Shown: positions 15,590 to 64,000 of the stretch, in pieces
How the letters are laid out: each line of letters starts with the position of its first letter
Numbering within the stretch: the first letter of the stretch is position 1
Origin: Aquila chrysaetos chrysaetos
Lineage: Eukaryota; Chordata; Aves; Accipitriformes; Accipitridae
Length of the DNA: 64,000 nt
Reading direction: 5' to 3'
NCBI RefSeq assembly: GCF_900496995.4
Contig: NC_044012.1
Location: 24,466,759-24,530,758 of the forward strand
Translations under genes and position numbers: made by a program
Notes under the pieces: model-generated
Databases searched by the model: none
What the model saw: only the letters and a program-made list of their open reading frames with translations
Told to the model about the DNA's origin: nothing

Positions 15590-15622
15590 AAAAAAGGGGA
15601 CCTGGCCGGCGGAGGGATACGG

Positions 15623-35800: not shown

Positions 35801-38800
35801 TCTTTCAGTTTTGAATTCTGTAGAACCTTGCCAGCCTTTAACTGTTAATGCAGTGGAATAAAACCCCCGAAGGTCTCTTCTTGTACAGTGAATTTTGTTT
35901 CAAACTGAGTCTCTGGCAAGCCTCAAAGGTTTTTTTTTCCCCTCTGAACTGCTAGTTCTCCGGTGAGAGCTGATGCCTGAATATTGCACAAGTGGTGTTT
36001 CTGCTGTTGATACTAATTAGAACAAATTTGTTGCAGAAATTAAACTGATTCTAACCATTCAACTCTTGCTGTTTATATTTTTGAGAAGAACAAATAAATG
36101 TCATGGGTGGTACTGTATTACTGGGCAGAGTAGAAAGAAGGAGGTGGCAGGTATTCAAAAACCAAAATAGCAAAAGAAACAATCCCCCTCACACATACAC
36201 CATTCTCATTCCTTCCTTACTCTTTGAGACTTGAACTCTTAGGGGTGGAACTGGTATTCTGTTGTGATCTCAGTGAAGGTGACTATGACTATGTGTGTAC
36301 TCATTTTAGATTGTTGAGCCAGTGGAGTTGTTCTGGAAGGGTAACGTGGCTAATCCTCACACCTCTCACTGTCTGGGCAGTGGTGACATCTTAATCAGCT
36401 GTTTGGGAGACCCTTCTGGCAATGGAAAAGGTATTAATCCCCTTCGTTACTCTAGAAAAGTATTTGTGGTATAGAAGTATCATGCTTCCAAAGTACAGGC
36501 TGCAAAGCTAGAAGAATTTTTAAGAGCTTACAGTTCTTTTGTGCACATAACCATTCCAGCAGTTGTTTATTTAACTATAGAATAAATACTTCAGGTGAAC
36601 TGTATGGTCATTGCTCTGCCATAACAATTCAGACTTGATGTGGAAGAACATCTGTGGGACTGTTGATGAGTTCAGCTTCCCTGTCTCAGTCTTTCACATA
36701 TATGACTAAAGAAGACCAACTGTAGTGGTTATAATATGAGCAACAAACCTATTAACATTTCACTTGGGTCCCTTCAGCATCGAGCAAGGAAGACTTGCTT
36801 TTGAACATAATCTGTACCAGCTCAGTGTTTGTGACTTGGGCATGAAAGATTCTGTTGCAAACCTAAATCCTCTTTGTCTCATTGTCTAATGAAAATTAAG
36901 CCTTTCAAGCTAGTCTAGATTGCATTTCCTATTTAAAACTTTTGAAGGATTCTTGTGTAATTTTGTTACCTATTCAGATGTAAAACACCTGACATCTAAA
37001 GAGAAATACTAGCTATTAGAAGAAATATACTTCAGATAGTAAGTGGTGAACCCTGCTCCTTTTCACAGGGTTTTTCTCTTCTGGATTGTGGGCAAACATG
37101 TGCTTGAATAGATGCATATAACGTACATAATTCAAGGATACTGGTGGCAAGCAAAGAAAAATGGAGGTGACTCCTCCAGGATCTTCTCTAAGATATCCCT
37201 TAATTGAAATGTACTCTAGGAGGGCTAACAGATTTATTGGAATGACTTGAGTAAAAATAGAGCAAACTGAAGCTTAAAAAATTCATTACAGTGTGATAAA
37301 GTTCTTTTAAAATCCAGCTTTCATTTGCTTTAGTCCACAAAAGCAAAACCAACAGAATCACAAAACTTTCCTTAAGCATAGGGTTGCATTTTACAGAGTG
37401 TTTACAAAATAGGCATTTAAATATTAATATATTATTTATCTTATTTAAAGCTGTGGATCTGCGTGAACGTCTTCAAACAATTTTCTTTGGTTTTTATATC
37501 AGGTGGCTTTATTTTGCTGGATGGAGAGACCTTTGAAGTGAAAGGAAATTGGGAGAATGGGGAAAAGGTACCCCCCCTGGGTTATGACTTCTGGTATCAG
37601 CCACGACACAATGTCCTGATGAGCACTGAATGGGGAGCCCCAAAAGCCTTGGCAGATGGGTTTAACCCAGATGATGTAGAGAGAGGTGAGGGAGAATTTG
37701 TTTAAATTCTCAAAAGTAGAAGTGATTCTTTGTTAAAATAATATCTTCTGTGCTTATTTTTGTCTGACCTGATCCATTAGGGCATTATGGCTGCCGCATT
37801 AATGTGTGGGACTGGAGCACTCACACCTACATTCAGGCAATTGACTTAGGGAAGGGGTCCATACCCTTGGAAATTCGATTCCTCCACAATCCGGATGCTG
37901 CAGAAGGGTTTGTTGGATGTGCTCTGAGTGGTGCAGTTCATCGGTTCTACAAGACAGAGGTAAGTAATGAAAGCTGTGGCAAACACAGAAACTCAAACCT
38001 AGTTGTTTCAGAAATCCACCAATCACTTATGAAGTAGTAGAATTTGGATTAAAAATAAAAAGTCTCCTAATTCCAGTCTAATTCTAGCTAAGCTCTAACA
38101 TTGTGTCAGAGAGCAAACCTAATCACAGCGTGCATACAAGCCGATGCCGTGGCTTTCTGAAGCTACCATGTAGTCCCTCATCTTTAAGCAATTGCAGTTG
38201 GTAGGCATTTTGAGTATCTCTCCAGCCATATTGCTAATGTCCAGCATGCAAATCTTCGGCAGCCTGATCCTGAAAGGAAGCAAAGCTTAAGAGGTCATGT
38301 TGCTGGTCTTTCAGCCCCACTTCCAACGCTCCTGCCTCCACAGTAACTTGTTGATCAATTTAATCACAGTTAATGAATTGTGAAAGTCTCAAAGAGGGGA
38401 AGGTCTTGCCAATGATAGGAACATTAGTGATCACTTGAACAAGAGACAATCTAATGAACACTTGCACTGAAGAGAGGGATGCAGCATTAGCTCAATGGCT
38501 TGCTTTCTGGCCTGCAAGCTGGTCAACAAACACATATCAATTGGACAGCTAATCGGAACATGTGAAACTTGTCACCAGTGTCAATGTGGGCTGCCTACTG
38601 CTCAGCCTGGAAGCATAGGGAAAGACCTGAGGGTAGAGGAGGGAGGGAGGGAAAGTGGTGGGGTCATGGACAGGGGAGTAGAGCTATTGCCATTTTAGAG
38701 GACGAGCTGGAGACAGATAGGACACCAAGCTGTAGGAGATTAGAAGTCTTTAGTTCTGCTACTGTTACAGCAATCTGTTTTAGAGGTTGTTGCATAGTAT

Positions 38801-41800
38801 AATCATTAACATTCTCTCTGGCAGTATAGTTACCATCCTCACTCCTTGGTAACACTTATTTGCAGTGTGCATATCACCTCTGTACAGGACCTGTTAAATA
38901 AATAGCACTATTTGCTTCTCCTCCCTCTGTCGTGCATAGCTGAGCCCTCTTGGCTAACGTCAAGGCAATAATAATGCGGTGTTCTCTCCTGTGCCTTCTG
39001 CAGAAAGGAGACTGGGCAGCAGAGAAGGTGATTCAAGTACCCAGCAAGAAGGTACAAGGATGGCTTCTCCCTGACATGCCTGGTTAGTGTGACCATGTTT
39101 GGAAAAGAAAAGGGGTGTTGTCCTCTTCAGTTCACTGGTACAGTGTAGCTTTTTGCAGAATCTTATCCTTAAGTGGCAAACACTTCCCATGTAAATTACT
39201 AAATTTCTGTTTGGGTTCTTTGTGTAACACTTCTGATGTAACCAAATTGCTTATGAGCCACCAAGTAGGAGATTGGCAGACCTCTGCTCCCACACTGCTC
39301 AATGCTTGAGGTCAGTTTCTCTAGAAAAATACTTGAGTTTGGGTCTTTCAGCATGAGCTCACAGTATTCAGGAATGGTCCTGGGAATGCTGGTAGAGCCT
39401 GCACCTCCTTTGAGTAGGCACTGGGTTTCCAGGGATGATTGTGTTTGTTCAACCCATATCTTAACATATTTTTCTGAGGCTACTATGACTAGAATTTTGA
39501 AAGATAATAGGCTTGTGGTCTTCTTTGTTGCTGGTCCTGTCCATTTCCTGACTTTTCTACTGAATATTTTCTTGAAGGCCTTATTACTGATATCCTCATC
39601 TCGCTGGATGACAGGTTCCTGTATTTCAGCAACTGGCTGCATGGAGACATCCGCCAGTACGATATCTCCAACACCCACAAACCCAAGCTGGTGGGACAGG
39701 TAAGCCAGCATCAGAAAAGCTGTCACGTACAAGGGCAGTACAGTCTGCTTATTCCCTTCTTTTTTAAAAGGAGAAATCGACAATTTACTTTTGCTTCAGA
39801 ATTGTCACTATATTGCTTTCATGTTCCTTTGATAGCCGACACCTATTCTCACACATTTCCTTGGTTACAGTTGTTTCTGGGAGGCAGCATCACAAAAGGG
39901 GGGCCTATAACTGTAGTGGAAGACAAGGAATTGCAGTGTCAGCCAGACCCATTTGTGATCAAAGTAAGTTTTCCTAACATGCATGTTGTCAGTGCTCTGC
40001 TGATTGTAATCCATTTTAAAATATCCCTATACCTCAGTCAAATGTACAACATATAAAGCCACATCTGAGCTAGTTTTTATCTTGGCTGACAGCCTGGGCA
40101 GGTATCACGTTTCAGCATGGACTGGAGCTAGTAAATCCTGGTAAGTGTTCTGGGTCCCTGGTGGATTTGGACAAGCTGTTCAACTGTACTGAAGCCTGTG
40201 TAATTACATCTTCCCGGCTGTTGTTAGCTAGCTATTGTAAAGCTAATGCAATGTGCATTCATCACACTGCCATCACGGCTTCTGATAATCTTTCAACAGC
40301 TGATAGTTGAAGCACTAAACCAGCTCATTCTGCAGTGTGTGTTTGGGGGGGTGCATGTGTGTGAAGAGTTTGATGGCACCTGGCATCGTGATAGAAAAAT
40401 GAAAGAGTATTAATTGTCTCTGGTCATTATCAATGTGCATTAATATTATTACTGTCAAGGCAGCTACCTATGGAAAGTCTCAAGATGTGCAAGAACTGAA
40501 TATGGTTATGACTAAGATCTGTTGGCCACGAAAGGCAGTTTCAAGAAGTTCCACATACTCCTTTTCTTCATAGTGCAGATTGTGACCTAGCTGCAGTATA
40601 GACACGTTCTTATTTGCAACTGTGTTATGCCACCCACCTCTTGCTTGATTTTTGATACTTCTATCCAAGTACAACAACCTGAACCCTTCAGCCCTTACTT
40701 TCTTACATTACTAGTTCTGTGAATTAAGTGGAACTCATCTGAAATGGCTTCGAGGCTCCCAGTTAGTAAGGAATAAGACTCCCAATAAAAACTGTTCTGT
40801 CTCCAAAGTAGGGAATTTGGTGCTCCTGTGTCAAGGATTTCAGAGTGCTGGATGGTCCTCTGAGTAGCAGAACTGCTGTGCTGTTTTGTTTCTCCTTGCT
40901 GTTGCATTTCCTTTGTTCAACCTCTGTGGCAGCTCGTCTTGAGCACCTTGTTCTCTATTATAATTTTAGGGGAAGAGGGTGCCAGGTGGACCTCAGATGA
41001 TTCAGCTTAGTTTGGATGGGAAGAGATTGTATGTCACCAGCTCTCTCTACAGTGGATGGGACAAGCAGTTCTACCCTGATCTTGTCAAGTAAGAAAACTT
41101 TGGTAAATGAGGATGACTGTACAAGCCCATGTTCAAGATTTCTTTCTTAAATGGTGACATGCATATACCAGCTGGTATACAGCACAAAGTTCCCACACAG
41201 GGAGACTGAATCCAGTAACTTTTTATACACAGCCTACCAACCTAGATGTTTTACCCACTAGCCAGAATCCATCCCTGCTCAACAGGCACACAAAAGTTGG
41301 GGCCTGCACACACTATTTGTTGAAATCATGGTCTATTTGGAAGTAGGTGAGAATGGCAAGAAACCAGTGAATGTGACCTAGCCTCCTGGAATCTGTAGTA
41401 CTTCCAAACTGCCTTTGAGTGTATCAGCATGAGACTCTATTTTTTGGATTTAAAGAAAGGAGAAGATGATGTTCCAGATGGCCACAGGAGGGCATAGTGC
41501 AGCTTGTCTATTCCTTTAAAAGAAACAACAGCTATTAATTTTCACTCATTCATTGCTAATTTGAGGTTGCAGGTTTCACTGAGACAGTGTAACTCACTTT
41601 TGAGACCTGCTAAGACCCATTTGGAATCTGGGAATCTTTTCATTTTATATTAAATGAAGACAAATCCTGCCCAAATATGGAACAGAAGAGCAACAAATAC
41701 AAATCCTTTTCCCAATTTCTGTTTTCTTGTCCCTTTTTCAGGGAAGGTTCTGTTATGCTGCAGATTGATGTGGATACTGAAAGAGGTGGATTGAAAGTGA

Positions 41801-41904
41801 ATAAAAACTTCCTAGTGGATTTTGGGAAGGAACCTGAAGGGCCTGTCCTAGCTCATGAGATTCGTTACCCTGGTGGTGACAGTACCTCTGATATCTGGAT
41901 GTAA
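26867..41904 (+). CDS. SELENBP1: SELENBP1, selenium-binding protein 1 / methanethiol oxidase, complete
   Basis: A cytosolic SBP56-family beta-propeller enzyme; the human protein oxidises methanethiol to H2S, formaldehyde and H2O2. Twelve coding exons: 26867-26870, 32159-32212, 33311-33423, 34567-34752, 36310-36430, 37503-37685, 37781-37959, 39004-39082, 39578-39699, 39871-39963, 40970-41088, 41742-41904. All phases join, giving 471 codons with TAA at the end; human has 472. Exon 1 holds only ATGG. Visible signatures: N-terminal KCGAC (C4, C7), C56 (human C57), C79-S-S-C82 (the CSSC motif), H72/H73, H136/H139, [11 protein letters not shown]224 and H328 in NWLHGD (human G225 and H329, sites of halitosis mutations as I recall), and [11 protein letters not shown] near the C-terminus. 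Intron 2 has a GC donor (AAAG|GCAAGT). No disabling change is seen, so this is the conserved orthologue. The acceptor of exon 3 (GAAAG|GTCCC) is weak, but phase and homology fix it. Confidence 0.97.
26871..32158 (+). other. SELENBP1: SELENBP1 intron 1 (5.3 kb)
   Basis: The intron is bounded by ATGG|GTAAGAG and CAATCAG|CAAAATG. It holds a T(20)C(7) run at 28575-28601 and no recognisable gene. The antisense open frame at 31186-31662 (158 codons) matches nothing known to me. Confidence 0.85.
28575..28601 (+). repeat. T(20)C(7) homopolymer tract
   Basis: A T-run directly followed by a C-run in SELENBP1 intron 1. Confidence 0.95.
41266..41575 (+). repeat. SELENBP1 intron 11 segment with a diverged copy 3.3 kb downstream
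   Basis: This part of intron 11 is repeated in the same orientation at 44556-44862. Shared landmarks in order are 'aatccatcc', 'ctgcacacactattt', 'gtgacctagcct', 'ttccaaactgcct', 'gatggccacaggagggcat' and 'cttaatttgaggt'-type endings. Confidence 0.75.
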
Positions 41905-46410: not shown

Positions 46411-47039
46411 CAAGGGTTGGATGGTGTGGTTTTCCTTGTGCTCCTGAAGAGGGGAATGGACTGGAACAGAGTGAAACCCCTGGGAGATGTGGAGCCTGGG
46501 AAGGTCTAGGACAATGTACCTCTGCTGGCATTTTTTGCTGGGGCACTGGCACTGACTACAGCCTTTCCAAACTCTGCTGCTCTCGTGGTGCTTAGTGCCT
46601 TGCTGACCTGTTTGAGTGTGGCAGAAAGCTGTAAAGAGAGTATGGAGGCCAGGACAAAAGTATAGGACGGGGGATTTAAGAATGCAAGATGATGAGCAAC
46701 ACTTAGACATCCTGGAGCACCTCCAGGGTTTTATGGCACGGTGAGGTGGGAAGCGAGAGAACGTCCTCCCTGGAGAACGAGGGGAAGGTTGGAGGGTGCT
46801 CCCATAGTTGGGGTAGGTCTTGCTTGGGTGTTTAGAGCAGACGTGGTTTTCTTGGTGAAGCAAGGTCTTCTCCCAATGCATTTAGTGCGCTGGGCCAGTC
46901 TGCACCAGGTTGTATCACTTTGTCTTGCCCATTACCAAAATTATAGCATGTTCTTCCCTACCAGGGTTGGAAGAGATGATCAGGAGGAGGGGAGTAGTTG
47001 CCACCTGACTGTGGGCTGTCAAGTGAAGCCCACAATTGC
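46411..47039 (+). repeat. Segmental duplication block B (upstream copy)
   Basis: About 629 bp is repeated at 60532-61160 with offset 14,121 bp and only a few substitutions. The preceding 46366-46410 ('ccatgaatttac' to 'acatcttcaag') has a more diverged partner at 60256-60303, so the downstream copy carries about 230 bp that the upstream copy lacks at this point. Confidence 0.95.
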
Positions 47040-47227
47040 CTGGAGCACATGTTTGGGCCATACATCCTGCCAGCCTGGAAATTGGAATTTCCACTCTTTC
47101 TGGAAGGAGTGAAAATGAGCCTGCATTTTTTTCCTTTTCTACTGCCTGAAACAAGCACCTGCCTCTGCATAGTGCACTAATTATTTGAGAAACTGCTTAA
47201 AGCTGGGCACTGATGCCAGGTGCCAGG

Positions 47228-47977
47228 CTGCTCCAGTGTCCACCTGTCACTTGTTTAAAGTGCTGTTCTGGAACCAGAGAGCCATTAATTACAGCCCTAC
47301 TGAGATTGGCTATCTCTTCTGGTGGAGATCTCCCGAGGGCTTCTTTAATGGCGCTGTCAGATGTTTCTGCATTCCTACGTGGAGCAATTACTTATCCTGT
47401 GTAATTTGCCCACTGATTGAGGAGCTCTTCCACAAGATACAATGCTCGTTCACGTTCCATGGCACTTGGTGTTTTCTTCCTGCTTTAGTTTGGCAGCTGG
47501 TGGCAGCCAGGCTCCTGGTGATCACAGGAGGGGACCCTTCTTCCAAAATTCTTCTCTCCAATACCTCAATCCCTTTAATGGAGGCCTCTGCTGTTCCCAT
47601 GGGTGTTTTGTGACAGTTTAGTCTAGTTTGTATGTAATTCAACCACACTGGTGCCAGGCACTTTGCAGCGTTAGTGGCTGCTATGGGGCTTTGGGTGTTC
47701 AGTGAGTGGACTGGTGGGGAGAGTAAGTAGCTACTGCTCAGGCACTGTTTCACGGTGCCGAGTTGCCCCGAATCCTAAAGGTTCCTATTTTCCATAGGTG
47801 GGCTGACTTCCCCACATGGAGATGCAAACCTGAGAGGCAGCAGGCATGTCTTGACCTTGTAGGTGCTGCATCAACAAGATCAACAAGGGCACAGTTTGCT
47901 TTTCCTGAGGCACCCATTCCTAGCCTGATGTGTTTTCTAGCTGTTTGGGAGCCATCAGCAGCTCCTCAAGTCTCTTC
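47228..47977 (+). repeat. Segmental duplication block C (upstream copy)
   Basis: It is repeated at 63247-64000, reaching the right window edge. The first 100 bp differ by small indels; from about 47330 the copies are almost identical (offset 16,022, then 16,023 after one extra T). In this upstream copy the block leads, 0.7 kb later, into exon 1 of the SELENBP1-like gene. Confidence 0.95.
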
Positions 47978-48539: not shown

Positions 48540-48710
48540 GCTCCTCCCTTGGCAGCTTGCTTTCTCCCCCCCACCCCTTTGCCTTGTATATAAGGCCCCC
48601 TCGGAGCAGCCTTGGCACAACACAGCCCACTCCAGCGAGGCAGGGAGCAAGCTGCACCTCCAGTTCCAGCACCTCTGCTCTTGAGGAGAGTGAACCAGAA
48701 GGCCTTCAGC
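48540..48710 (+). promoter_or_regulatory. Promoter and 5' UTR of the SELENBP1-like gene
   Basis: TATATAAG at 48587-48594 is a stronger TATA box than that of the first gene. It is flanked by the shared blocks 'ctcccttggcagct', a C-rich run and 'ccccctcgga'. Transcription should start near 48620, leaving about 90 bp of 5' UTR before the ATG at 48711. Confidence 0.8.
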
Positions 48711-51700
48711 ATGGGTAAGAGATACTCTGCAGCCTCCCCGCAGCCCACAGCAGCTCCAAGCCTTGTAGCCGCATCCTGGATCTGGCTCCAGCCACTGCCT
48801 GGAGGCTGCAGACATCCCACCTTGAAACCCATTTGTGGACTGGTAGGTTTGTTCCTCTGCAGCACTGCAGGAAGGAGAAGAGTGGGACTGAAGCTTGGCG
48901 TGTTGTCTGACTGGTGCCAGAGGTTTCTATTGCCTCGCTACCGTTCTGCTTCCAGGGGCTTCTTTTTGCCTTGAAAAGCTACTTGCATGTGGCTGTAGCA
49001 TCCGTGCTGAGGGGAGCCTCCCCTTCTGCTGCGGAATCGTCAGGGAGACAAGAAACCAGACTTATTTTCCAGGCTAGACCTTCAATACTGACGTGGTTCT
49101 CTGTGTAAGCTCTCTCTCCTTCACTGCTGTTGGAGAAGCGATCAGTGAGGTGCTCAGAGGATGCAGAAGGGAACTGAGCAGTGGTTTGATCCATGATACG
49201 CCAGGTGGCACTTGAGAGAGGATTCCTCTCCTGCATCTGTGATTTGTCAGTGCCATAACAAGACTAGATGCTGGTCACAGAGGTCCCCATTGACAGCGGG
49301 GGTGGGAGAAGGTCCATCGGGTAGGACAGAGTCTTCTGAATAGGCACCTTTTAGGACGTAGACGTTTCTCATTTTATTCTTCTCTTCTTCTCGAATCAGA
49401 CAGATGCAGAGTTCAGTGCTACGAGTACCCCACCTGCCCGGATGTTGTGAAAGGCAAGTCCTCTTGAGCATGTTTTGGAGTGGGTGGTGTTTGGGAAAGA
49501 GCTCCGTGTTAGTGGAGACCACCATTAACTGTGTGTGTTATAGCCTCTCCAAAGGGAGAAGGCTGTAACTATATGGAGATCCACTTTTGTCCTCTTACCT
49601 CTGGGTCCGTAATGGAAGCAGGGTTGGACAGTTAACAGTGACCAAGGAGGAAGGTTGTAGCATCCAGAAAAATAAGTTCAGTCCTATCTGAGAGTCTGTT
49701 GAAGCTTTTCTTTTCCTTTCTGGCTGGCTCATGGTGTGTTTTAAAGGAAGCTTTCTATATACCCAGCTCCCAGAGAGGAGGTTGCCTACGTGACCTGTAC
49801 CTACAGGGAAACATGCATCGACCAACCTGACTTCCTGGCCACCATCGATCTCAACCCCAGATCTCCATATTATTGCCAGGTACCTGTGTCTTGACTGTGT
49901 TTTTATTGGGCTGGTGACTAGCTGCTGGCTCTGTGCTTTATAGTGCCTCCAGATTCAGGACATCTACTCTTTTTTGCTGGGGAAAATCAGATTGCTTGAT
50001 AGCCACTCTGTCATGCCAGCTGTCTGTTTATGCCTTACACCTTCTTGTCTTCCTGCATCTTTCTGTCTCATCCACCCTGAACTGACTTTTTTCCCTTGCT
50101 GCCTGTTCATAACCTGCCAAGACCCATCTGGGAAACCCCTTGTGAGTTTTGTCATGACAGGTCTACTTCTTGCTTCTCCACCGGTATTATGCGTGAGATA
50201 GGGATGTTGTCTGCTAGGAATCTCACCTTCCTGGTCTCTTTCCACTGTCTTGTGTATGCCTCGCTCTAGTTGAATCACCTCTGTCTCTGTGTCCCGGGGA
50301 CAAGTTGGCTCTGACTCACTTCCCAACTCACTCCCAGAGAATCTTGGTGCTGCTAGTGAGTTTTTGAGCAAATGCTCTGAATCACCCTGTCAGTGGCTGC
50401 TCAGCATGGAAAATGGTCTCCAGTGACCCAGGTGGTTTAGGGTATCCAGCACTTTTGCAGAGTTCAGCAATTTTCTACTGTGCTGCAATGTTGGCGATGT
50501 TCTGTTATGCACTGTACCAACCTGTCTGCTGTCATCCTAAATGGGAAGTTGGAGTTTACCTGTCTCCAAAGGCTGCAAAGACACATTATCTACATCTACT
50601 GTGCATCTTTGAACTGATCAGTCACATTTAACATTTCCGGAGATCTCCTTTGGTGCGGGCACTGGTGTTATCATCTCTATGTTGCTGGTTGCATTAGGGT
50701 CCCCATTTCTCCGTGCCTCCCTGTGCGAACCCTAACTCTACCTTGAGTGCCTAGGTGATTCACCGCCTGCCCATGCCCAACCTCAAAGATGAGCTGCATT
50801 CCTCGGGGTGGAGCGCTGGCTGCCCCTGCTTTGACGATACCACAACGAAAAGGAACAAGCTGATTCTTCCCTGTTTGATTTCTTCCCGCATTTACGTGGT
50901 GGATGTGGGTTCACAGTGCCGGGCTCCCAAGCTGTGTAAGGTATGCCTGAGGTGATTCAAAGACAAGCTTCTGGGAAGGAGTTGGGAACTAGTGCTTCTT
51001 GAATAATGTAGAGGGAAGAAGGGTTCTCTCCTCATCTTCTCTTCCACCCTGATTTTAGAGAGCTGGGTCACTTTTCCCTCTCGGCTCTCTCCTTTTCAGA
51101 CCAAGGAAGGCTCCGATCATCATTGCGTTCCGTTCTGTGTGCCTGTTGCACAGAGAGAGTCTAATAACGGGAAGTCACGCAACACACCACACCTGCCCCC
51201 CTCCCAAATAGTGAGGCGGACAGACAAGCTGTTATGAGTTAGGTGTTGCTGCACTCTTGTTGTCTGTGCAGAGGGGAGCTCAGAGGCTTCTGTGCTCCTC
51301 TCGAAGGAGGAGCAGGCCCTAGCAAGTGTGAGTTCTGGGAAAGAAAGCTCCGGCAAGCGTCAGAGATTTTCAGAAGTCTCTGATGGCCAAAGGCTCTGCC
51401 AGGGAGTGTGAAATGAGCTGAGCAGTCAGAGGCTGAAGTGTGTGTGCGTCAACTTTTTTCAGATGATTGAGCCAGTGGATGTCTTCTGGAAGTGCAACAA
51501 GGGATACCTCAATATACCTCGCAGCCTGCCTAATGGCGATATTCTGATTGCCAACACAGGAGATCCATCTGGCAATGCGAAAGGTACTTTGCCCTTTAAT
51601 AACTCCATGAACAAACTGATTGGTTTGGAAGTGGAGTATGTGATATTTCGTCCATCCCCTTTTTGTATCACAGGTGGATTTATTGTGCTGGATGGAGAGA

Positions 51701-54505
51701 CCTTTGAGCTGAAGGGGAACTGGGAGAATGAGTGTGACAGCCCGCCGAGTGGATATGACTTCTGTTACAAGCCACGCCACAACGTTCTGGTCAGCTCTGC
51801 CGGAGTAGTCCCAAAATGTGTGGGATATGGATTCAGTCCCGATGACTTCAAGAAAGGTGAGGGAATATGGGTGCAAGTGCTGAGCCAGAACTCACCGAGG
51901 TGGTGGGAGGGTGTCGATGCCGTCAAAGAAAGGGCCAGAGCTGGTGAGAGGACACAGGCAGATTTCTTCCCCAATGGCCCATTTTACAGACACGGCTACA
52001 GGACGTGCAGCATCTGTCCTTAAGGCAGGCTGGTTCCTGTCTTCTCCCACTGCTCCCTAAATCACCGCAGTTTCTCTGCTGATTCTGGCTCGTCGCTGCC
52101 ATGGCTGTCCCTGCCTGTGAGCATTTTGGGGAGGGATTAGGGTAGCCCTCCCTCTTCTGATGTGGTTTTCCTTTTCCTCAGGGGTCTTTGGGCGCCGCCT
52201 GAACGTGTGGAACTTGTCCTGCCGCAGCCTCACCCAGTGCTTTGACCTGGGGGAGGACTCTCTGCCCCTGAGCGTTAAATTCCTCCACAACCCCGATGCT
52301 GCCGAGGGATATGTCAGCTGTGCCCTGAGTGGCATCGTCTACCGCTTCTACAAGTGCGAGGCAAGTATTGTGCCAGCAGCCAGGGGAGACCCGGCCGTGG
52401 TGAGCTACAGAGGGATTGAGAAGCACACAGAAGAAATTTGGGGTAGCAGAGAGAAAGAAGGAGGCGTGCGGAGAGGGCACTATCCAGACCCTGCTTTGGA
52501 TGTGTGTGCTAGAACGAGAGGAGTCTGTTCTTCCACTGAGTGTAAAGGAAGCCCATCATGACCATCTAGGATGAACATCTGGGGGATTAATTTGAGCGAT
52601 GAAGACCAGCCTTGCTGTTGGTATCAGACGATGCTGTCCTAATTGTGTCTGCTCATAGTAGCTGGGTGCAGCGGTAGCCTTCCTCAGGCAACTTTGCCTA
52701 GCTGTGCAAGTGTGTGAGTGCAGGGGAGTGCACATCTTGCCTGACCAGCCAGGAACGCTCATGGTGCGGTGCCTGTGTTTCTTGTGCAGAGAGACAACTG
52801 GGCAGTGGAGGAGGTGATTCGGATACCGGCCAAGGACGTGACGGGATGGATTATGCCCAAGATGCCAGGTTCGTGTGCCCTGAGGTGGTGTTTCCTTTTT
52901 CTTCCGGGGCATTGTTTTGCACAGCCTGGCAAAGCCCACTCACTGACCGGCAAAGCCTTGCTGCGTAAACACGGCAGAAGGCTCGTTGGAGGGGCTGAGG
53001 GGCTGTGCACACCCCCAAGAAGACACTGCTGCCCCAGCTGGAGCCTGTGCACTTGAGCCTGTGAGATGTACAGAATGGCAGGGAGAGATGCGAGCTGGGG
53101 TTCGATGCAAGGCATGCTTTCTGTTGCTGCTGTCTTCTCTGGAGCTTTTTGTTTCTGTGCCCTAGCATTCACAGTGGACCTCATCATCTCAATGGATGAC
53201 AAGTACCTCTATCTCAGCAACTGGCTGCATGGAGACATCCGCCAGTACGAGCTCTCCAAAACCTGCAAGCCCAGGCTGGTGGGACAGGTAAGGCAGGAGC
53301 AGAAAGGCTTGCACTGTTGGGTTCCTCGGCAGGATCTGGTGGTGGTTAGATGACAAGGCAACATGTCTCCCACTGCCTCGCTTACAGGTGTTTGTGGGAG
53401 GCAGTATCCTCAGAGGTGGACCCGTGGCTGTGTGTAGAGACGAAGAGCTGAAGTGCCAGCCGGAGCCCTTGGTGATCAAGGTGAGTTCCGTGGCCTGTTT
53501 GCCCTCTGGTGTCCTTTGGACTTTGGCTCTGCTCTGCTAATTCTCTGCCCAGGGTTTCTGGGGTAGGTCTCCACCACGGAGGTGCCCCCGTGTCTGCAGC
53601 ATCTGGTAGCTTGTCTGTGTTGGGAGGGGAGGCAGCCACTCTGCTCTGCTCTGCTCCCCTGCTCCTGCTTGTGCTTGACTGCTCAAAGAAAGAAGCCAGT
53701 AACATCACTGCTGTCTGTTGTGCCTTCAGTGCAAGAGAGTGTACGGCGGCCCTGGTAAAATGCAGCTCAGCGTGGATGGCAAGAGGCTGTACGTCACCAA
53801 CTCCTTATACAGCACATGGGACAAGCAGTTCTACCCGAACTTGGTCAAGTAAGAAACATTTGGGAGACAAGGGGCCTCTTTTGCATGGCCTCTCTGTTAG
53901 AAACAGGAAAGGTGCCTCATCAGGGGGCCTACAAGGACGCGTTTGTGATTGCAAGGGGACAGCTCTTTCTAACACCATCCCCGCAGCTTCCTCATGTTGA
54001 ATTTCACATTGTGAGTTGACTCACAAACATCTCTGGCTGGGCAAGCTGCAGTGCCAGGGATTGGCTTGGGAGAGCCTAAGTGTTTCAGTCTGAAAGGTGG
54101 AGTGAATCCATCTACGGATCTCTGGGAGCCAGGCCACGTCTCTGCTACAGCATCTCCCAGTGTATCCACCAGAGATGTTTTGATTTAGCAAAGCAGACGA
54201 TGATCTCCAACACCAAGGCAAGCTCCAGCCTGCCTGTCACATCATGCCTAGCAGATACGGAACAGGAGGGTGAAGGGCAGGATCTCTTGAACAGGACCAT
54301 GGTTTGCTTGTCTGTAATAGCTGTGCTCTCGTCCCCTCACAGGGAAGGCTCTGTCATGCTGCAGATTGATGTGGACACTGAGAAAGGAGGCCTGACCGTG
54401 AACAAGAACTTCCTGGTGGATTTTGGAAAGGAACCCAATGGGCCTTGCCTTGCCCATGACATCCACTTCCCTTGTGGGGATTCCACCACCGATATCTTGG
54501 CCTAG
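48711..54505 (+). CDS. SELENBP1-like paralogue, cysteine-rich, complete
   Basis: A full tandem paralogue of SELENBP1. Exons: 48711-48714, 49400-49453, 49767-49879, 50755-50940, 51463-51583, 51674-51856, 52182-52360, 52790-52868, 53166-53287, 53388-53480, 53730-53848, 54343-54505. Every exon has the same length as its partner in the first gene, giving 471 codons ending in TAG with no stop or frameshift. By my count exon 12 keeps 42 of 53 residues and exon 4 keeps 45 of 62. It has 25 cysteines (4, 8, 14, 30, 36, 56, 80, 82, 97, 112, 118, 130, 180, 190, 208, 234, 240, 267, 279, 340, 363, 370, 379, 453, 462) against 11 in SELENBP1. The CSSC motif became GCPC, and KCGAC became RCRVQC. H73, H136 and H139 of SELENBP1 are gone, as is TEW (201-203). 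C56, G224 and H328 remain. Introns 2 and 7 use GC donors. The enzyme activity is therefore doubtful; the frame looks maintained by selection. Confidence 0.94.
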
Positions 54506-55190
54506 GCGCCATGTGAAAGACTCCCTTCTTCTCTCCCTTCTGTAGTGCAGCCATTAAGAGCATAGGGTAATTGGGTCTGGGGGTCCGCATGCATTGCTGG
54601 AGTCTAGATTTCTGCTAACATAAGCTATGGAAGCTCTGCCTTGTTGCGAGAGTTTGGTTCAGGCCGGTGAACAACGACACAGGCATGTTTTCAGTGCAAA
54701 GCAATCCCTGGGCATGATTCACAGAGCAGAGCCCAGGGCGATTGCTCAGATACAGACACGTGCAGTGCGCACAGTGCCTTTCGGCAGACATCTGCATACC
54801 CACCGTGCCTTGCCTCATTGCTACAGGCCTGTCGGACACCTGCCTTGATGTCCCCAGGCTGTTAGCAATCGCTGTCTAGTACCGGGGCCGGTAGCAAGGT
54901 GTTGGACTCTCAGTTATGCTTCAGAGCTTGTTCACCCTTGAAAACTAAGGCAAAAGAAAGTGAAGTGCCCAGTTTGTCTGAGTTACTGTTCTTCAGCCAG
55001 GACATTCCTGGATAGTCTTCCCCTGGCACAAGAGCCCTCTTGGCTCGCTTCTCACGTGCTTGGATCAGTATGCATTATAGCTGAAGGAGTATGAAGTGCT
55101 TTATTTCAAAAAGAGGTGCCTGTTTCATGACACTGGTTTGCTCTTGTGTTCTGCTTTAAACAAGAATAAAATTGTTCTTTGCATCAGCTG
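54506..55190 (+). other. 3' UTR of the SELENBP1-like gene
   Basis: This runs from the TAG stop to just past the AATAAA at 55165-55170. The end of the UTR is related to that of the first gene around the signal. Confidence 0.7.
55165..55170 (+). terminator. Polyadenylation signal of the SELENBP1-like gene
   Basis: AATAAA in the context 'aataaaattgttctttgc', shared with the first gene's signal, followed by a T/G-rich element ('tcttcatgtgtctt'). Confidence 0.8.
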
Positions 55191-57164: not shown

Positions 57165-58355
57165 ATACAGAGAAGTGTAAATGAGTCCTTGGAGTGGAAC
57201 CTGAAATGTTTAGGTAAACTGCTCAGCATATGTATTCCTGGTTTGCATTTCCTTCTCCATCACTGGAGGAAAGTCAGCTGTTCTTGTTTTCAATTGTTAC
57301 ACGGTTGGAGTCTGATTTGCAGTGCTCGTAGGGACTTTTAAGGAAAGTTGCCAATGCCTGTCTTTAGGCAGAGGCATGGAAGAGGAGAAGAAGCAGGTCC
57401 TGCTCGTCCGTCCTCCCCAGCTGCATGGTGCTGCCACTCCTCTTGTGTCAGATGGAGCGATTGTGCAGTTGTGGGAGGAGTCGGTCGGAGGAGCTGATCC
57501 GGCAGAAAACTGCGCTGCCAGAAAAGTGACTCACCGTCCATCTCCCTGTGGCTGCACATGGCAGGGCCCTTCAGCAGCAGCCTGAAGTCACTTCTCATTA
57601 CATGGTGTCTGAAATCACAACCTAAGGATGTGGGTGTCGGATGGGTTTGTCCGGTTGCAGCTGTGGGCTGCAGTGGGGAGGGGTGATCCCACTGCTGCCG
57701 TGCTTCTGGCCAGACCTTTCTGTGCCCTCCCCTGTGACTCCGGCTCCAACAGCAAACCACTCATTCGGAGGGGAAGGGGCAGCTGAAATAGTAGCGGAGA
57801 AAAGGCAGAGAGGTGCCTTGAGGGAGAAGAAGTGTAGTTGTGCTATGCTGATGTTCCCTCCAGCAAACCTGGTAGCCTGCACATGGAAATGTGTTTTGAA
57901 GTGACATGCAGAAGGGCACCACGTGTCCCGGGCGTGAGTCCAGTAGCCCTGTGACATTTGGTTTGTTTCTGCTCAGTGAGGGGATCGATAGATCCAGGGT
58001 GTTGGATCTGAGCTTTGCACAGTCTGCTTGCTTTTAAAAACATTTGCCTTTTGTCTTAGATGTGCCTCTGCACTTCAGGCTGTTTGCGTACCACTTGCAC
58101 CAAAGTTCTGAGCACTCTGTCTTTCTATCTCACATGCCTTTGGTGGACTCTTCTGTGCTGCCCCCAGAGTCGTTTGTGTCTTGCTACTGCCTATGTGCAG
58201 TGAGCTGTGCCACCTGCCATCGACTTTGTGTTGCTCTGCTGGGGATCCACAGCTGGCAGGGAGGTTGTCTGCCAGGAATCTCACCGTCCTGCTCCTTTCT
58301 GCTCTCTCCTCTGCCCTGGCAAGAGGTGAGCTCAGCTGGTTTTGCTTGGTGTTTG
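57165..58355 (+). repeat. Segmental duplication block A' (downstream copy)
   Basis: This is the nearly identical partner of 45168-46358. Here the right end runs straight on into further intron-3-like sequence and the decayed exon 4, which shows what the upstream copy has lost. Confidence 0.95.
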
Positions 58356-59870
58356 CCTGCACCTACAGCTTCTCTGGCTGAGGCTGGGAGCAGTGTCCCC
58401 TGAGCCTGGTTCATGAAGTCTAATGGCTCAGCCGCGTAGGGCATCCAGCAGCTTTGGCAGCATGCCTTGTAACGTCCACGCTGTTGTGTTGTCCACTCTG
58501 CTAACCACCCTTTCTCATCATATATGGAAAATCAGATTTGACCTCCTTCATGAGGTTGTAAATTCTGTTTATCTTCTCAAACCATGCCTCTGAACAGATT
58601 AGTTTGCTCTTGCAAAGAGTATTCTATAAACCAATGTGTCTGTGGCAGGATCTGTCTCTCCCATCCTTAGAGCAGGAGACTGTGGAGTGGACACATACAT
58701 TGTTGCCTGCATTGCATTTATGCCTGTGGAGAGAGAAAAGGGCGTCCGGGGAGTATGTTCCAAGTCATTCAAGTTGGCCATTTCAAATAGGTTAGATGAG
58801 TGATACCCAGAAAAATTATCTTCTGATTTATTCTCTCCTGAGGCTGTTTGCCTAAAATGCTTCAAAGCATTGTGAACTTTGAATCCAGTGTTGAGGGCAC
58901 TGGAAAAGTCCTATCTCTGGCTTCAAACAGAACATTTACAGCTCTCTTATTTATTTAGATAGTTGTTGTTCAGGTGTTCATTGGCATGGGATGTGTAATC
59001 CAGTTCCTGAAAGAATGTAGGACTTCAGCTTTCAGCTTTCCACATGTCTCAGGCAGAGATGTGCTACCAAACGGAAGCAGCAAGCACAGTGTTACTCTCC
59101 CTCAGTCCCTAGAGGCAGTCTCAGTGCAACAAGGCTTAAGTGACTGTTTGCATTAAGGTCCCCTTTTCTCTCTGCCTCTCCAAGTGAAATACTTCTGCCT
59201 TTGACTGGCTGTGTGATCCACTGCCTATCCATGCCCAACCTGAAAGACGAGTGTCAGCACCTTAGGGTGGAATGGAGGTATCACATGTTTTGTAGATGTG
59301 TCACCAAGGAAAAGGAACAAGCTGATTCTTCTGAGTTTAATTTTTTTCCTGATTTTGTGTGGTGGATAGGAGAACAAACTTCTGAGCTCTCAAGATGTGT
59401 ATGCTATGCATGAGGTAACATGCCTCTGAGAAGGAGATGAGAGCTGGAGCTTTTGGAAGAAGATACAAGGAAGAGGAGTTTTGGATTACCCCTCAATGCT
59501 TATGTAGGCAAATATGGAACTGGGACTCATCAGTAGTCACTTAAAATACAAGTCATTAAAAAGGAGATCTTAGATACAGAAAAATAGTAAAAAGTGGGAG
59601 ACACTTATATTAGGGTATAGTTCCTTTGTCCATAATACCAGCTTTCTTGTTCTTTTTCAGAGGAGGTTGGTGGATTTTGGAAGGAACTCAACCAGGTTTG
59701 CATGCTCATGATACTGGCTTCTCTTGTGGAGACTGCACATCTGATGTCAAGGTGTAGCAATGCAAGGAAGAGCCCAGATTCCTTTCTCTGTTCTAAAATG
59801 TAGTTGTTAGAGAAGGACATAAAGTGACTTTTTTCAGCAGAGACTTTGTCCACAACTTGAATCACCATGG
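58230..59870 (+). pseudogene. Decayed SELENBP1-like gene copy (intron 3, exon 4, part of exon 12, 3' UTR)
   Basis: Intron-3 sequence is recognisable from about 58240 ('ggttgtctgccaggaatctcacc') through 'gcatccagcagctttggcag' (58442) to 'cattaaggtccccttttctc' (59152). The exon 4 relic is 59213-59403. It starts VIHCLSMPNLKDECQ, has lost both splice sites (acceptor CTAG became GCTG, donor GTATGC became CTATGC), and is 191 bp instead of 186, so it is frameshifted. The exon 12 relic is 59661-59757. It keeps its CAG acceptor but lacks about 70 bp of the front part and has a one-base deletion in 'ggaaagg' that brings an early stop. Diverged 3' UTR ('actttgtccac') follows near 59845. Exons 5-11 are missing. 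Similarity is closest to the cysteine-rich paralogue (for example 'cttgtggag' for its PCGD end). Confidence 0.85.
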
Positions 59871-60531
59871 TTTAGTATGTACTGCAGAAGCTGTCTTACT
59901 CCAGTGATCAGATTGAGAAAGAACAATTCCTCTGTTGGTCTATATCTGCACCTACAGACAAGTGCCAGTGAGGCGACCTCCCATTGTCACCTTCCTTTCT
60001 ATCAGCAGTGCAATTTCACATTTCTTAGTTGTCATATTTTCCTCACCCAACAGAAGGTTCTGATGAGCACATGTATCAGTCTGCCAGCTTCAAAAAATCA
60101 TCCCCTTTTTCCTCTCTGTTTCATGTTCACTGCTGATGGGAGAGTTCGGACGCCTTCATATACACATTGGCAATGATTCCTTGGTGCTTGTAGATGAAAT
60201 GTCAGGCCCCACAGCAGTTCAGGTGGGAATGACAAATGGAAATGGGGGCTCACTCCATGAATTTAAATTTGTCAGCAAAGCTCTGCTTCAGAACATCATC
60301 AAAACCGACTGGCAGCTGCTTATAATCAGACTCCCTGCAGGTCAGGATCATTAGGCAGTAAACACTAATGTGCAGAGCTATGGGGGCTACAATCCAGCAC
60401 TCTCTAAGCCACATCTTGAAGAAGTTAACAGTACACTTTATTAAGCTTCCCATACCACATCAGTAGCTTGTAAATTAACCTCCAAACCTTGCCCCTGCTG
60501 TTTGAGGTGATAAATTGTGCCTTTTTTGACA
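59871..60531. other. Spacer between the pseudogene and block B'
   Basis: Mostly unassigned. 60256-60303 is a diverged partner of 46366-46410. A short 'ggttctgatgagcac' near 60055 resembles part of SELENBP1 exon 6 ('tgtcctgatgagcac') but is too short to claim. Confidence 0.5.
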
Positions 60532-61160
60532 CAAGGGTTGGATGGTGTGGTTTTCCTTCTGCTCCTGAAGAGGGGAATGGACTGGAACAGAGTGAAACCC
60601 CTGGGAGATGTGGAGCCTGGGAAGGTCTAGGACAATGTACCTCTGCTGGCATTTTTTGCTGGGGCACTGGCACTGACTACAGCCTTTCCAAACTCTGCTG
60701 CTCTCGTGGTGCTTAGTGCCTTGCTGACCTGTTTGAGTGTGGCAGAAAGCTGTAAAGAGAGTATGGAGGCCAGGACAAAAGTATAGGACGGGGGATTTAA
60801 GAATGCAAGATGATGAGCAACACTTAGACATCCTGGAGCACCTCCAGGGTTTTATGGCACGGTGAGGTGGGAAGCGAGAGAACGTCCTCCCTGGAGAACG
60901 AGGGGAAGGTTGGAGGGTGCTCCCATAGTTGGGGTAGGTCTTGCTTGGGTGTTTAGAGCAGACGTGGTTTTCTTGGTGAAGCAAGGTCTTCTCCCAATGC
61001 ATTTAGTGCGCTGGGCCAGTCTGCACCAGGTTGTATCACTTTGTCTTGCCCATTACCAAAATTATAGCATGTTCTTCCCTACCAGGGTTGGAAGAGATGG
61101 TCAGGAGGAGGGGAGTAGTTGCCACCTGACTGTGGGCTGTCCAGTGAAGCCCACAGTTGC
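60532..61160 (+). repeat. Segmental duplication block B' (downstream copy)
   Basis: Partner of 46411-47039 at offset 14,121. The match ends at 'gtgaagcccaca', after which the sequences are unrelated. Confidence 0.95.
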
Positions 61161-63246
61161 TTTTTCCATGTCATGGCTTCCCATCTCTGCCTGCCATAGG
61201 GAGCTTTTCTTGGGCCGAGAGCAGACCACACTGATTGTGTTCTCCGCTAACCATCACTTGCTTGCTTGTTGGTGTTGCTGAGCCTGCTCTTATCCTTCCT
61301 ACTATCAGTTTTAATTAGAAAACTCTACACCCCACAGCTTGGTTTGTGAGAGGTGCCAAAGACGTCACCAAGGAAAGCCAAATAGGATAACCAGCAAACT
61401 TTGTTAATGAGTGGGAGACTAATGAACTTTTTAATTAGCAGGTGTGCAGGTGCAAGAAGATGGTGCAGTGAGACATGCACATTGTGACAGCAGAAGCATG
61501 CAAAGAGGCATCAGCTGAGCACCTGAAATTGCCTCTGATGGAGCAGGAGCTTCTCTCATGTCCTTGGGCCTGGTTGTGCTTCCTGCCCGCCAGGCAAATA
61601 AGGACGGCAGCAAGTGAGGTACAATGCCTGATCTCTCTTGGTTTTGATTGGGGAAAGATGGGCAGTTCTACCCAGCTCAGAGCAGCATGGGAGAGCAATG
61701 GTGAGCTCTGTGCAGTCAAGCAGAAGAGAGGGAAGGGTCGTTTTGAGTTGCTCTGAGGAGGACAGCTAGCTAGCTCCGGCTTTGCAGCTGCTCATGGACT
61801 GAGGGCTTCCTTCTGATTCTTGAGGTGTGAGCTCTTGAAATCTGCCCCGTGATGAGCGGAAGCCAGGTTGGTTCCCAACACTGTCACCTCTTTGTGAGCC
61901 CAGGACAAGCTTGCTGCCCTTAGGAGACATAGAAGAGTTTGCCTCTGAGAATCGGAGATGGAGACAGATTCTTTGCTTCCACTTGTGCAAGTGTGGCCCA
62001 AAAAATGCATGGCATGTTGTGAAAATGTGTGGGTTGCAGTCTGATGAAGCAGAGCATTGACAGGCTATAGGCGCTGCAAGAGGCAGAGCCAGGCTGAAAG
62101 CTGTCCCAGGCAAGCAATACTGAAAGTCTCTGTGCTGCATTTTACAGAAAAGGTTGTACCAGCTACTTCCACATCTCTCTGCAGTAGGAGTTTGCTGGTG
62201 AAGGATGGGATTTGCAAACTCCTGCAAAAGGAGTGCCACAAGTCCTGTTCAGAAGCACACATCTATAAAATAAACTCTTTGAGAATTACTGTAAAAGGGC
62301 TATGACTGTTCTTAATCCAGAGGGAGAAATCTAGCAATATCCTGCTAGGCTTAGAAAGCAGTGCACAGCCCTAGGAGGCATCACTGTGTCCTTCACCTTT
62401 GGAGTGCTGCTGGCTTCATACAGCTGAAGTAGAAGTGTTTAACATTCATATAGCCATGAGGGTGGAAAGATAGCCACTGTTCAGCACTCTGGGTCTTACG
62501 GCATTGGCCTGTCAGTCTTGTTTTGTCCAATGTGGATTTACAGTGGTCTTTCATCGAGTGTCCTTACCTTTGGAGATGGTGACATCCTGTACACATTAAA
62601 CCTGGTGTTACACTTAAGCCCTGAAGTCCAGTGTGGAGCCCAGTGCCTTAATCCAGGTTGGCCTGGTGCGGCTGAACTCCCCCATGTACAGTGTAGCTCT
62701 TCGATGCCTCTTTCTTCTGGCGTCCTTTGCAGTCCCTCCTTATGTTTGCTAGTTTTTCTGACATCCAAGAAAGGTCCCTCTGCTCGGGTCTTCTAGGTCC
62801 TAGGTGGACACCATGCTTAATTAAATGGGCTGTTCTAATGCTGTTGAAAAGCCATCCAGAAGTGTCTCCATTACATGTCTGATTTGATATGAGGATAGAA
62901 TTTCTTTCCATGTGGTTTACTCTTGCCCAGCATGTCAACTTATTTCATAGTCAATAACATAAGGCTTTAGGCCATTACTGTGCATGCTTTCTCCTTCCAT
63001 CCACGATATTATTTTAACACCTTCTGCTTGCCTTATAGCGACCCTTGATGTAACTGGGACGCAGCTGGTCAGTAATACATTGACTGGTAGCATAGAAGTG
63101 TCTGGCTGTGGTAATGATCCCTCTCCTGACTGTCTTTGTCCCTTGCACTGAAAATGCTGAGATGGATTTCTGCTAAACAAATCACAACTTCCTCCCAGTG
63201 CAGGCAGTTTGATGCTCCTCTCTTACAGAAAAGATCAAGTGTTTGG
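61161..63246. other. Sequence present only in the downstream unit
   Basis: About 2.1 kb separates B' from C', where the upstream unit has only about 190 bp. I recognise no exon, transposon end or target-site duplication. Short open frames are unsupported. Confidence 0.5.
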
Positions 63247-64000
63247 CTGCTCCCATGTCCGCCTGTCACGTGTTTAAAGTGCTGTTCTGGAAGCCATTTA
63301 ATTACAGCCCTACTGAGATTGGCTAAGCTGTCCTCTCTTCTGATGGAGGTCTCCCCGAGGGCTTCTTTAATGGCGCTGTCAGATGTTTCTGCATTCCTAC
63401 GTGGAGCAATTACTTATCCTGTGTAATTTGCCCACTGATTGAGGAGCTCTTCCACAAGATACAATGCTCGTTCACGTTCCATGGCACTTGGTGTTTTCTT
63501 CCTGCTTTAGTTTGGCAGCTGGTGGCAGCCAGGCTCCTGGTGATCACAGGAGGGGACCCTTCTTCCAAAATTCTTCTCTCCAATACCTCAATCCCTTTAA
63601 TGGAGGCCTCTGCTGTTCCCATGGGTGTTTTGTGACAGTTTAGTCTAGTTTGTATGTAATTCAACCACACTGGTGCCAGGCACTTTGCAGCGTTAGTGGC
63701 TGCTATGGGGCTTTTGGGTGTTCAGTGAGTGGACTGGTGGGGAGAGTAAGTAGCTACTGCTCAGGCACTGTTTCACGGTGCCGAGTTGCCCCGAATCCTA
63801 AAGGTTCCTATTTTCCATAGGTGGGCTGACTTCCCCACATGGAGATGCAAACCTGAGAGGCAGCAGGCATGTCTTGACCTTGTAGGTGCTGCATCAACAA
63901 GATCAACAAGGGCACAGTTTGCTTTTCCTGAGGCACCCATTCCTAGCCTGATGTGTTTTCTAGCTGTTTGGGAGCCATCAGCAGCTCCTCAAGTCTCTTC
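63247..64000 (+). repeat. Segmental duplication block C' (downstream copy, cut by window end)
   Basis: Partner of 47228-47977, still matching at the last base of the window. In the upstream unit the SELENBP1-like promoter and exon 1 begin about 0.6-0.7 kb beyond this point. Confidence 0.95.

Follow-up and report, generated by a model that had tools for sequence, protein, structure and literature searches.

A cysteine-enriched SELENBP1 paralogue of birds with a damaged copper site suggests that a metabolic enzyme took on a cross-linking or redox role, possibly in feathers

Two genes of the SELENBP1 family lie on the forward strand of the window (the whole stretch of 64,000 nt of Aquila chrysaetos chrysaetos DNA that was analysed), and they raise a question: gene 1 encodes 11 cysteines and gene 2, at 48711-54505, encodes 25; what has gene 2 become? 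We lean modestly towards the reading that it is a SELENBP1 paralogue that lost its copper site, was enriched in cysteine by selection, and is now a redox-responsive protein of cornifying (feather) cells. The features of the locus are as follows.

26867..41904, + strand: gene 1, an ordinary SELENBP1 of 12 exons (bird paralogue A); Pfam SBP56, 754.5 bits
45168..47977, + strand: 5′ flank of gene 2, parts of which recur further along the window
48587..48594, + strand: TATA box of gene 2, TATATAAG, by pattern match
48711..48714, + strand: gene 2 exon 1, ATGG, by splicing; GT donor
49400..49453, + strand: gene 2 exon 2; Cys 4 and clade-specific Cys 8 and 14; GC donor, same in gene 1
49767..49879, + strand: gene 2 exon 3; Cys 30, 36, 56
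50755..50940, + strand: gene 2 exon 4; Cys 80, 82, 97, 112, 118; human H74 replaced by Ser, human C80 lost
51463..51583, + strand: gene 2 exon 5; Cys 130; NIPRS in place of the HTSHC motif (human H137, H140, C141)
51674..51856, + strand: gene 2 exon 6; Cys 180, 190, 208; human D189 equivalent retained
52182..52360, + strand: gene 2 exon 7; Cys 234, 240, 267, 279; human E252 replaced by Ser; GC donor only in gene 2
52790..52868, + strand: gene 2 exon 8; no Cys
53166..53287, + strand: gene 2 exon 9; Cys 340; dS against gene 1 only 0.33
53388..53480, + strand: gene 2 exon 10; Cys 363, 370
53730..53848, + strand: gene 2 exon 11; Cys 379
54343..54505, + strand: gene 2 exon 12 and stop; Cys 453, 462
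55165..55179, + strand: probable polyadenylation signal of gene 2, AATAAAATTGTTCTT, by pattern match
57165..64000, + strand: second copy of the 5′ flank of gene 2, broken up by inserts
59137..59803, + strand: broken relic of a further copy, with remnants of exons 4 and 12; frameshifts or stops present

Scripted splicing of both genes gave identical lengths for all 12 exons (4, 54, 113, 186, 121, 183, 179, 79, 122, 93, 119 and 163 nt), and each gene reads as 471 codons plus a stop, with no internal stops; 298 of the 471 residues are identical between the two proteins. Acceptors are AG throughout and donors are GT, except for GC at intron 2 of both genes and at intron 7 of gene 2. A check of gene 2 for the marks of a pseudogene (stops, frameshifts, lost splice sites) found none, and its protein is a full-length match to the Pfam family SBP56 (PF05694; 569 bits, residues 11-469). 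The original prediction of an intact gene, with 471 codons and the 12 exon lengths of SELENBP1, was thereby reproduced. A splicing error or one divergent exon is ruled out as the source of the cysteines, since junctions and lengths match gene 1. The TATA pattern has three matches in the window against about 1.2 expected by chance, so that the argument for it is its position; in gene 1, TTGTATATATG precedes the ATG by about 100 nt. The polyadenylation signal recurs after gene 1 at 42506-42520, with 2 matches in the window and none expected. A Pfam search of three minus-strand ORFs of the window and an Rfam search gave no lead.

Six cysteine positions (4, 30, 56, 82, 267, 370) are common to the two genes, while 19 are found only in gene 2 and 5 only in gene 1; of the coding exons, only exon 8 and the 4-nt exon 1 contain none of the 19. 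These counts, and the spread over nearly all exons, had been noticed before and were confirmed by the splicing script; their earlier description as 19 gained and 5 lost holds as a difference between the genes but overstates both gains and losses, because gene 1 cannot be taken as the ancestor. C130 is an ancestral residue that the lineage of gene 1 has lost: it is present in 27/29 other vertebrates, 8/8 reptiles, 8/8 of bird paralogue B and 1/15 of bird paralogue A. Paralogue B also has C363 and C453 (8/8 each) and C208 (7/8), and C97 occurs in 10/29 other vertebrates. On the other side, C150 of gene 1 is a paralogue A residue (15/15), and C225 is the majority residue in no group. Eleven positions (8, 14, 80, 112, 118, 180, 234, 240, 279, 340, 379) are typical of a cysteine-rich bird clade and almost absent elsewhere, and ancestral Cys 7, 79 and 140 have been lost in that clade.

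The homologue searches matched 3155, 4230 and 272 proteins, of which the best 120 of each were examined. The tree and the cysteine group counts used 113 of 122 sequences, omitting nine partial or chimeric models (P0046, P0049, P0050, P0052, P0053, P0072, P0077, P0083, P0113). The 52 cysteine-rich bird proteins group as one monophyletic paralogue (FastTree, support 1.0), ranging from palaeognaths to passerines (kiwi to songbirds), which rules out a one-species oddity. Gene 2 falls in this separate clade, outside the ordinary vertebrate SELENBP1 orthologue group to which the gene 1 alongside belongs, and the orthologues of related birds do carry the extra cysteines, as the original prediction expected. 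Among 125 further proteins checked, 15 had at least two diagnostic cysteines and all 15 are from birds by name; no non-avian protein with the diagnostic pattern appeared in two lists of the best 120 or among the 125 further proteins. A gecko protein (P0105) joins the clade (FastTree support 0.925) yet lacks all eleven clade cysteines; it was rejected as an orthologue and kept out of the cysteine group counts, its placement being probably long-branch attraction. No chicken sequence was found by name among the matches listed.

Full-length clade members (n = 24) have 18-33 cysteines with a median of 23.5, compared with 8-14 in other vertebrate SELENBP1s (n = 54); the content is well above that of relatives clade-wide, as is expected of a cysteine-enriched co-opted enzyme of the CRUOX type. 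The positions turn over between bird lineages while content remains high, a pattern that favours selection on content over selection for one fixed set of bonds. We defined a clade-specific column as one with at least 80% Cys inside the clade and at most 5% outside, and observed 10. LG simulations (two sets of 500) gave means of 0.86 and 0.87 such columns with a maximum of 5, and JTT simulations a mean of 1.4 with a maximum of 10, equal to the observed number; the median content did not exceed 18 in any of the 1500 simulations under these general substitution models. Changes to cysteine were more frequent than in pooled controls (12/105 vs 8/314, P = 0.0007), these pooled comparisons not being independent; against the closest single control the excess is not clear (12/105 vs 2/51, P = 0.15). 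A bias of the gained cysteines to variable positions was not significant (P = 0.13).

Could the cysteines be by-products of the fast evolution of a dying duplicate under relaxed constraint? The stem branch of the clade is long (0.36-0.37), and identity between orders is lower than in paralogue A (82-85% for gene 2 against galliforms and kiwi, 92% for gene 1 against duck and parrot). Four rows of the clade carry the label LOW QUALITY, so that some genes may be damaged, and clade members are protein records, in which repaired stops are invisible. Against this, the gene persists across the whole range of birds given above, 209 of 471 columns are nearly fixed (at least 95% one residue inside the clade), the simulated medians fall short of the observed one, and pairwise dN/dS between gene 2 and gene 1 is 0.23-0.26, well off the neutrality mark of 1 near which relaxation had been expected to show; we consider drift of this kind highly improbable. 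Directed change towards a thiol-rich protein, the first half of an earlier suggestion, is well supported, the enrichment being old, kept and beyond substitution models; the other half, disulfide cross-linking, is conjectural, and the turnover of positions speaks against one fixed set of bonds.

Copper-dependent methanethiol oxidase activity of human SELENBP1 needs six residues, His73, His74, His137, His140, Asp189 and Glu252 (PMC10362175). Gene 1 has six of six, and gene 2 has H, S, N, R, D and S at these positions. For the copper-site counts, five of the nine omitted models were restored to the cysteine-rich side (57), and P0052 and P0105 were added to the other side (62). All 53 clade members readable at all six positions have three to five replaced, and 59/62 sequences outside the clade keep all six. 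The equivalents of H74 and E252 are each lost in 55/55 readable members and that of H140 in 26/57 (retained in 31/57); H137 is lost in 57/57, a universal loss because both cysteine-rich sets were picked by lack of His at position 136 (window numbering). Single human mutants of H74, E252, H137 or H140 each lose about 90% or more of activity (PMC10362175), with some copper binding still present. Human C80 and C141, for which a possible disulfide controlling entry to the site has been proposed (PMC10362175), are kept in 0/50 and 2/57 members. By analogy with the human point mutants, methanethiol oxidation has most likely been lost, and the gene 2 product is, from its residues, probably a pseudoenzyme. 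The damaged copper site is a point that the original prediction did not contain.

An alternative is that the paralogue is still an enzyme of altered chemistry, a thiol oxidase, reductase or persulfide-handling protein whose cysteines stand in for the copper site. The equivalents of H73 and D189 are retained in most members, cysteine occupies a lost His position (window 73) in 22/55, much of the protein is highly conserved, and there is a precedent in CRUOX, a cysteine-rich urate oxidase found in the skin of reptiles and birds, which retained weak uricase activity while acquiring a reducing one (PMC10517255). Such an enzyme is nonetheless rather unlikely, since the ligand replacements differ among birds (at 136 N, A, S, T or C; at 251 S, T, N, C, I or K), which would not be expected of a new active site, and many cysteine positions turn over. 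Metal or selenium binding, as in a zinc, copper or selenium buffer or carrier of, for example, oviduct, liver or growing feather, would suit a family with a history of binding selenium and copper, cysteine being a metal ligand, and in most members Cys 80 and 82 make up a new CXC. This we consider decidedly unlikely: the N-terminal CXXC, which accounts for most of the selenium bound by the human protein, is disrupted (Cys 7 lost in 27/27 readable members), although a new Cys 8 occurs in 21/26, and the clade-wide gains other than 80/82 form no close pairs.

Transcription, raised as a check by the original prediction, seems to take place: a 359-aa ORF on a 1448-nt contig (P0053) joins exons 5-12 without introns 5-11 and is of galliform type (97.5% identity to turkey over 317 residues), so that the gene seems transcribed and spliced there. 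As to tissue, co-expression with CRUOX, and with keratins, in chick embryonic skin is reported for three non-keratins, one of them chicken LOC425662, annotated with "similarity to methanethiol oxidase" (PMC10517255). LOC425662 is a candidate for this paralogue; feather expression would follow from that identity, and the co-expression would strengthen a role in cornified tissue. It is filed under "regulation of transcription" in PMC4594745, a label at odds with SELENBP1, behind which an old gene model may stand. The skin evidence runs entirely through LOC425662, and the paralogue might instead serve a tissue other than skin (oviduct, crop, eggshell gland, gut) in a structural or redox capacity; given the embryonic skin report we think this improbable. 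Ordinary methanethiol oxidase has been reported from polar bear fur, and SELENBP1 from red deer ventral-patch samples, where urine carry-over is possible, so that a protein of this family may occur in cornified material without being enriched in cysteine. Passages of a paper on egg tooth proteins make no mention of such a protein, literature linking feather to SELENBP1, methanethiol oxidase or selenium-binding protein gave no lead among the matches listed, and none joining SELENBP1, gene duplication and avian was found.

In the favoured account of a redox-responsive protein of cornifying cells, tandem duplication of SELENBP1 before the split of living birds would have produced gene 2, functional and widespread in birds; most of the copper site would then have been lost with the overall family fold retained, and cysteines gained under selection for thiol content. 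The paralogue would act in cornifying skin cells, feather cells above all, where oxidation of thiols late in cornification may tie it into a disulfide network with corneous beta proteins; cross-linking would be its mechanism, or, alternatively, it may buffer thiols and peroxide at that stage. A bolder version, which we hold only tentatively and think will probably fail, is that birds independently co-opted uricase and SELENBP1 as cysteine-rich parts of a single cross-linking system of the feather, CRUOX giving peroxide and the dead paralogue being a thiol-rich protein oxidised into the keratin matrix. In that version loss of the copper site would be adaptive, because an active enzyme would give off reducing H2S at the place where disulfides have to form.

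Corneous beta proteins, EDCRP and cysteine-rich keratins have structural or filament-forming roles, and many are small. A proposed likeness with these is that thiols are put to use in cornification; unlike the cysteine-rich feather proteins, the paralogue is a 471-residue member of an enzyme family. It has the family, exon structure and length of the neighbouring SELENBP1, with about twice the cysteines and without the CXXC and the C80/C141 pair. CRUOX and the paralogue both derive from metabolic oxidases, are cysteine-enriched and have a changed active site, yet disulfide aggregation and feather expression were demonstrated for CRUOX alone (PMC10517255). CRUOX, an orthologue, underwent most of its enrichment in the sauropsid ancestor and retains weak activity (PMC10517255), whereas the paralogue is a changed duplicate, found only in birds, whose catalytic site looks dead; because it is a duplicate it lay outside the earlier screen. 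If the account is true, this would be the second case of a cysteine-enriched metabolic enzyme after CRUOX, in an enzyme seemingly without catalysis, and would make testable the idea that metabolic enzymes are generally recruited into hard skin appendages by enrichment in cysteine. It also calls for caution in annotation, as many bird "methanethiol oxidase-like" proteins are probably not methanethiol oxidases.

Further duplicated sequence lies downstream of gene 2. Pieces of its 5′ flank recur at 57165-58356 (99.8%), 60532-61160 (99.4%) and 63245-64000 (96.9%), and this second flank copy reaches the window end about 730 nt short of the expected start of a further gene copy, which would lie beyond it. 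The relic at 59137-59803 resembles gene 2, with Gly at 79 and CGD at 462.

The + strand of the 64-kb window carries a tandem pair of intact SELENBP1 genes, with the following features:

26867-41904, + strand: gene 1, ordinary SELENBP1
48711-54505, + strand: gene 2, cysteine-rich SELENBP1 paralogue
32213: GC-AG intron 2 of gene 1
49454: GC-AG intron 2 of gene 2
52361: GC-AG intron 7 of gene 2

The original prediction of an intact, cysteine-loaded paralogue is borne out: the 12 exon lengths of gene 2 match those of gene 1, and its 471 codons include 25 for cysteine, against 11 in gene 1. The two proteins are identical at 298/471 residues, and histidines fall from 15 in gene 1 to 7 in gene 2. Pairwise dN is 0.26 and dS 1.0–1.1, so that silent sites are near saturation; by exon, dS is 0.8–2.6, exon 9 excepted and exon 2 not computable. 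In exon 9 of gene 2 (53166-53287) silent divergence from gene 1 is far below that of other exons (dS 0.33), which hints at past gene conversion between the two. Both genes have a TATA element close to the start, an identical 15-base AATAAA region 3′ of the stop and a GC donor at intron 2; the GC donor at intron 7 is found in gene 2 only.

Gene 2 is identical at 400 of 408 aligned residues to protein P0013, from the crested eagle Morphnus guianensis. The model of P0013 includes a retained intron, and the translation of that intron is almost identical to the one in the window, which makes an accipitrid raptor the probable source of the window. Close relatives, usually annotated as 'methanethiol oxidase-like' or 'SBP1 oxidase', come among the matches listed from gulls, parrots, owls, hummingbirds, pigeons and songbirds, and also from turkey, quail, kiwi, emu and tinamous; the anseriform proteins listed (Anas, Cairina and Chauna, by name) are ordinary forms. 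A FastTree tree was built from 113 sequences, with nine partial or chimeric models left out. In it the cysteine-rich set, defined as the 52 proteins without histidine at window position 136, forms a single clade (support 1.0, stem 0.37) with no other sequence inside. The orthologues of related birds carry the extra cysteines. No non-avian member was found among the best 120 of a profile search; among 125 further proteins, 15 have two or more of the eleven cysteines that are diagnostic of the clade, and each of the 15 is a bird protein by name. Judged by sequence, the cysteine-enriched paralogue is widespread in birds.

Eleven cysteine positions characterise the clade and seldom or never hold cysteine in other proteins: 8 (21/26), 14 (22/28), 80 (41/50), 112 (51/52), 118 (45/52), 180 (48/52), 234 (47/49), 240 (43/49), 279 (40/47), 340 (46/52) and 379 (50/51). 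The claim that the extra cysteines are new to gene 2 stands for these eleven, not for C130, which is ancestral, nor for C363 and C453, which are also in paralogue B, a third bird SELENBP1 paralogue. Cysteines 7, 79 and 140, all ancestral, are gone from the clade, and 21 positions beyond the eleven have cysteine in some birds only. Full-length clade members (n = 24) have 18–33 cysteines (median 23.5), and the other full-length proteins (n = 54) have 8–14. Pigeon P0043 and P0047 have the highest counts, 32 and 33. The clade's cysteine content has been kept while positions moved, which suggests selection on thiol content. Variability of the eleven positions in other vertebrates is not significantly higher than that of the rest (P = 0.13).

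Chance gain was simulated along the tree, with 500 runs each under LG from paralogue B, LG from the ordinary paralogue A, and JTT from paralogue B. Clade-specific cysteine columns number 10 in the data; the simulated means are 0.86, 0.87 and 1.4 and the maxima 5, 5 and 10, respectively, so the observed value was reached at least once under JTT. Simulated median cysteine counts are at most 16.5, 15 and 18, against 23.5 in the data. Consensus changes to cysteine relative to paralogue B are 12/105 in the clade and 8/314 in pooled controls, which are not independent (P = 0.0007); one of the 12 (370) is a residue present in reptiles and missing in paralogue B. The excess loses significance when the comparison is with the closest single control (2/51; P = 0.15).

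Human SELENBP1 is described as a copper-dependent thiol oxidase whose activity drops by ~90% or more when H73, H74, H137, H140, D189 or E252 is mutated (PMC10362175). At the equivalent positions gene 2 has H, S, N, R, D and S. The H74 and E252 equivalents are each missing in 55/55 readable clade members, that of H137 in 57/57 (true by group definition) and that of H140 in 26/57. In each of the 53 members in which all six positions can be read, three to five are changed; no change is seen in 59 of the 62 other proteins. The replacing residues are not constant, which is the pattern a dead site would show, and the equivalents of C80 and C141, for which a possible disulfide has been proposed (PMC10362175), are likewise lost. 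The original prediction is right yet omits half: the loss of most of the copper site and the probable catalytic death of the paralogue. A SELENBP1-like protein of 631 aa from the gecko Paroedura picta (P0105) also lacks the H74 and E252 equivalents and has none of the clade's cysteines; it may be a pseudoenzyme that arose independently, or the model may be faulty.

In a 1448-nt contig whose sequence is of galliform type, exons 5-12 are joined and part of intron 4 is kept; the gene is thus apparently transcribed and its transcript spliced. The contig's source label, 'lgn', presumably denotes assembled public reads. CRUOX, a cysteine-enriched uricase of bird skin, is described as forming disulfide aggregates upon oxidation (PMC10517255). 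In chick embryonic skin, one of three non-keratin genes reported to be co-expressed with CRUOX is LOC425662, a methanethiol oxidase-like gene (PMC10517255). The gene 2 paralogue would be a feather gene if LOC425662 is its chicken form; the paralogue is present in the galliforms turkey, quail and bamboo partridge, and no chicken sequence was found for it by name. In the one other paper found to mention it, LOC425662 appears among genes higher in sample cEF, taken to be early flight feather, where it is filed under an unfitting transcription term (PMC4594745). Our best guess is a role in feather cross-linking. Among the matches listed from open-licence PubMed Central papers, no earlier description of the paralogue was found, apart from what is said of LOC425662.

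Downstream of gene 2, its 5′ flank recurs as three pieces in the same order, with inserts between and 96.9–99.8% identity:

45168-46359 and 57165-58356: flank repeat piece 1, 99.8%
46411-47039 and 60532-61160: flank repeat piece 2, 99.4%
47226-47977 and 63245-64000: flank repeat piece 3, 96.9%
59137-59803: broken SELENBP1-like relic between flank pieces, exon 4 and exon 12 remnants only

The last piece is cut off by the window end, ~730 nt short of where a further gene copy would be expected to start. The repeat is either a recent second copy in this raptor (tandem duplication) or a stretch repeated by assembly. The relic is closer to gene 2 than to gene 1 at two diagnostic residues. A Corvus kubaryi model (P0052, cluster of 30) has first exons of the cysteine-rich paralogue and later exons of paralogue B, which suggests that the two genes lie side by side and may be joined by splicing. 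Elsewhere in the window, a GC-rich island at 14001-16000 (69% GC, surrounding stretches ~40–42%) is probably the promoter of a neighbouring gene, and a direct repeat of ~300 bases downstream of gene 1 (41266-41567 and 44556-44856, 75% identity) is probably an interspersed repeat.
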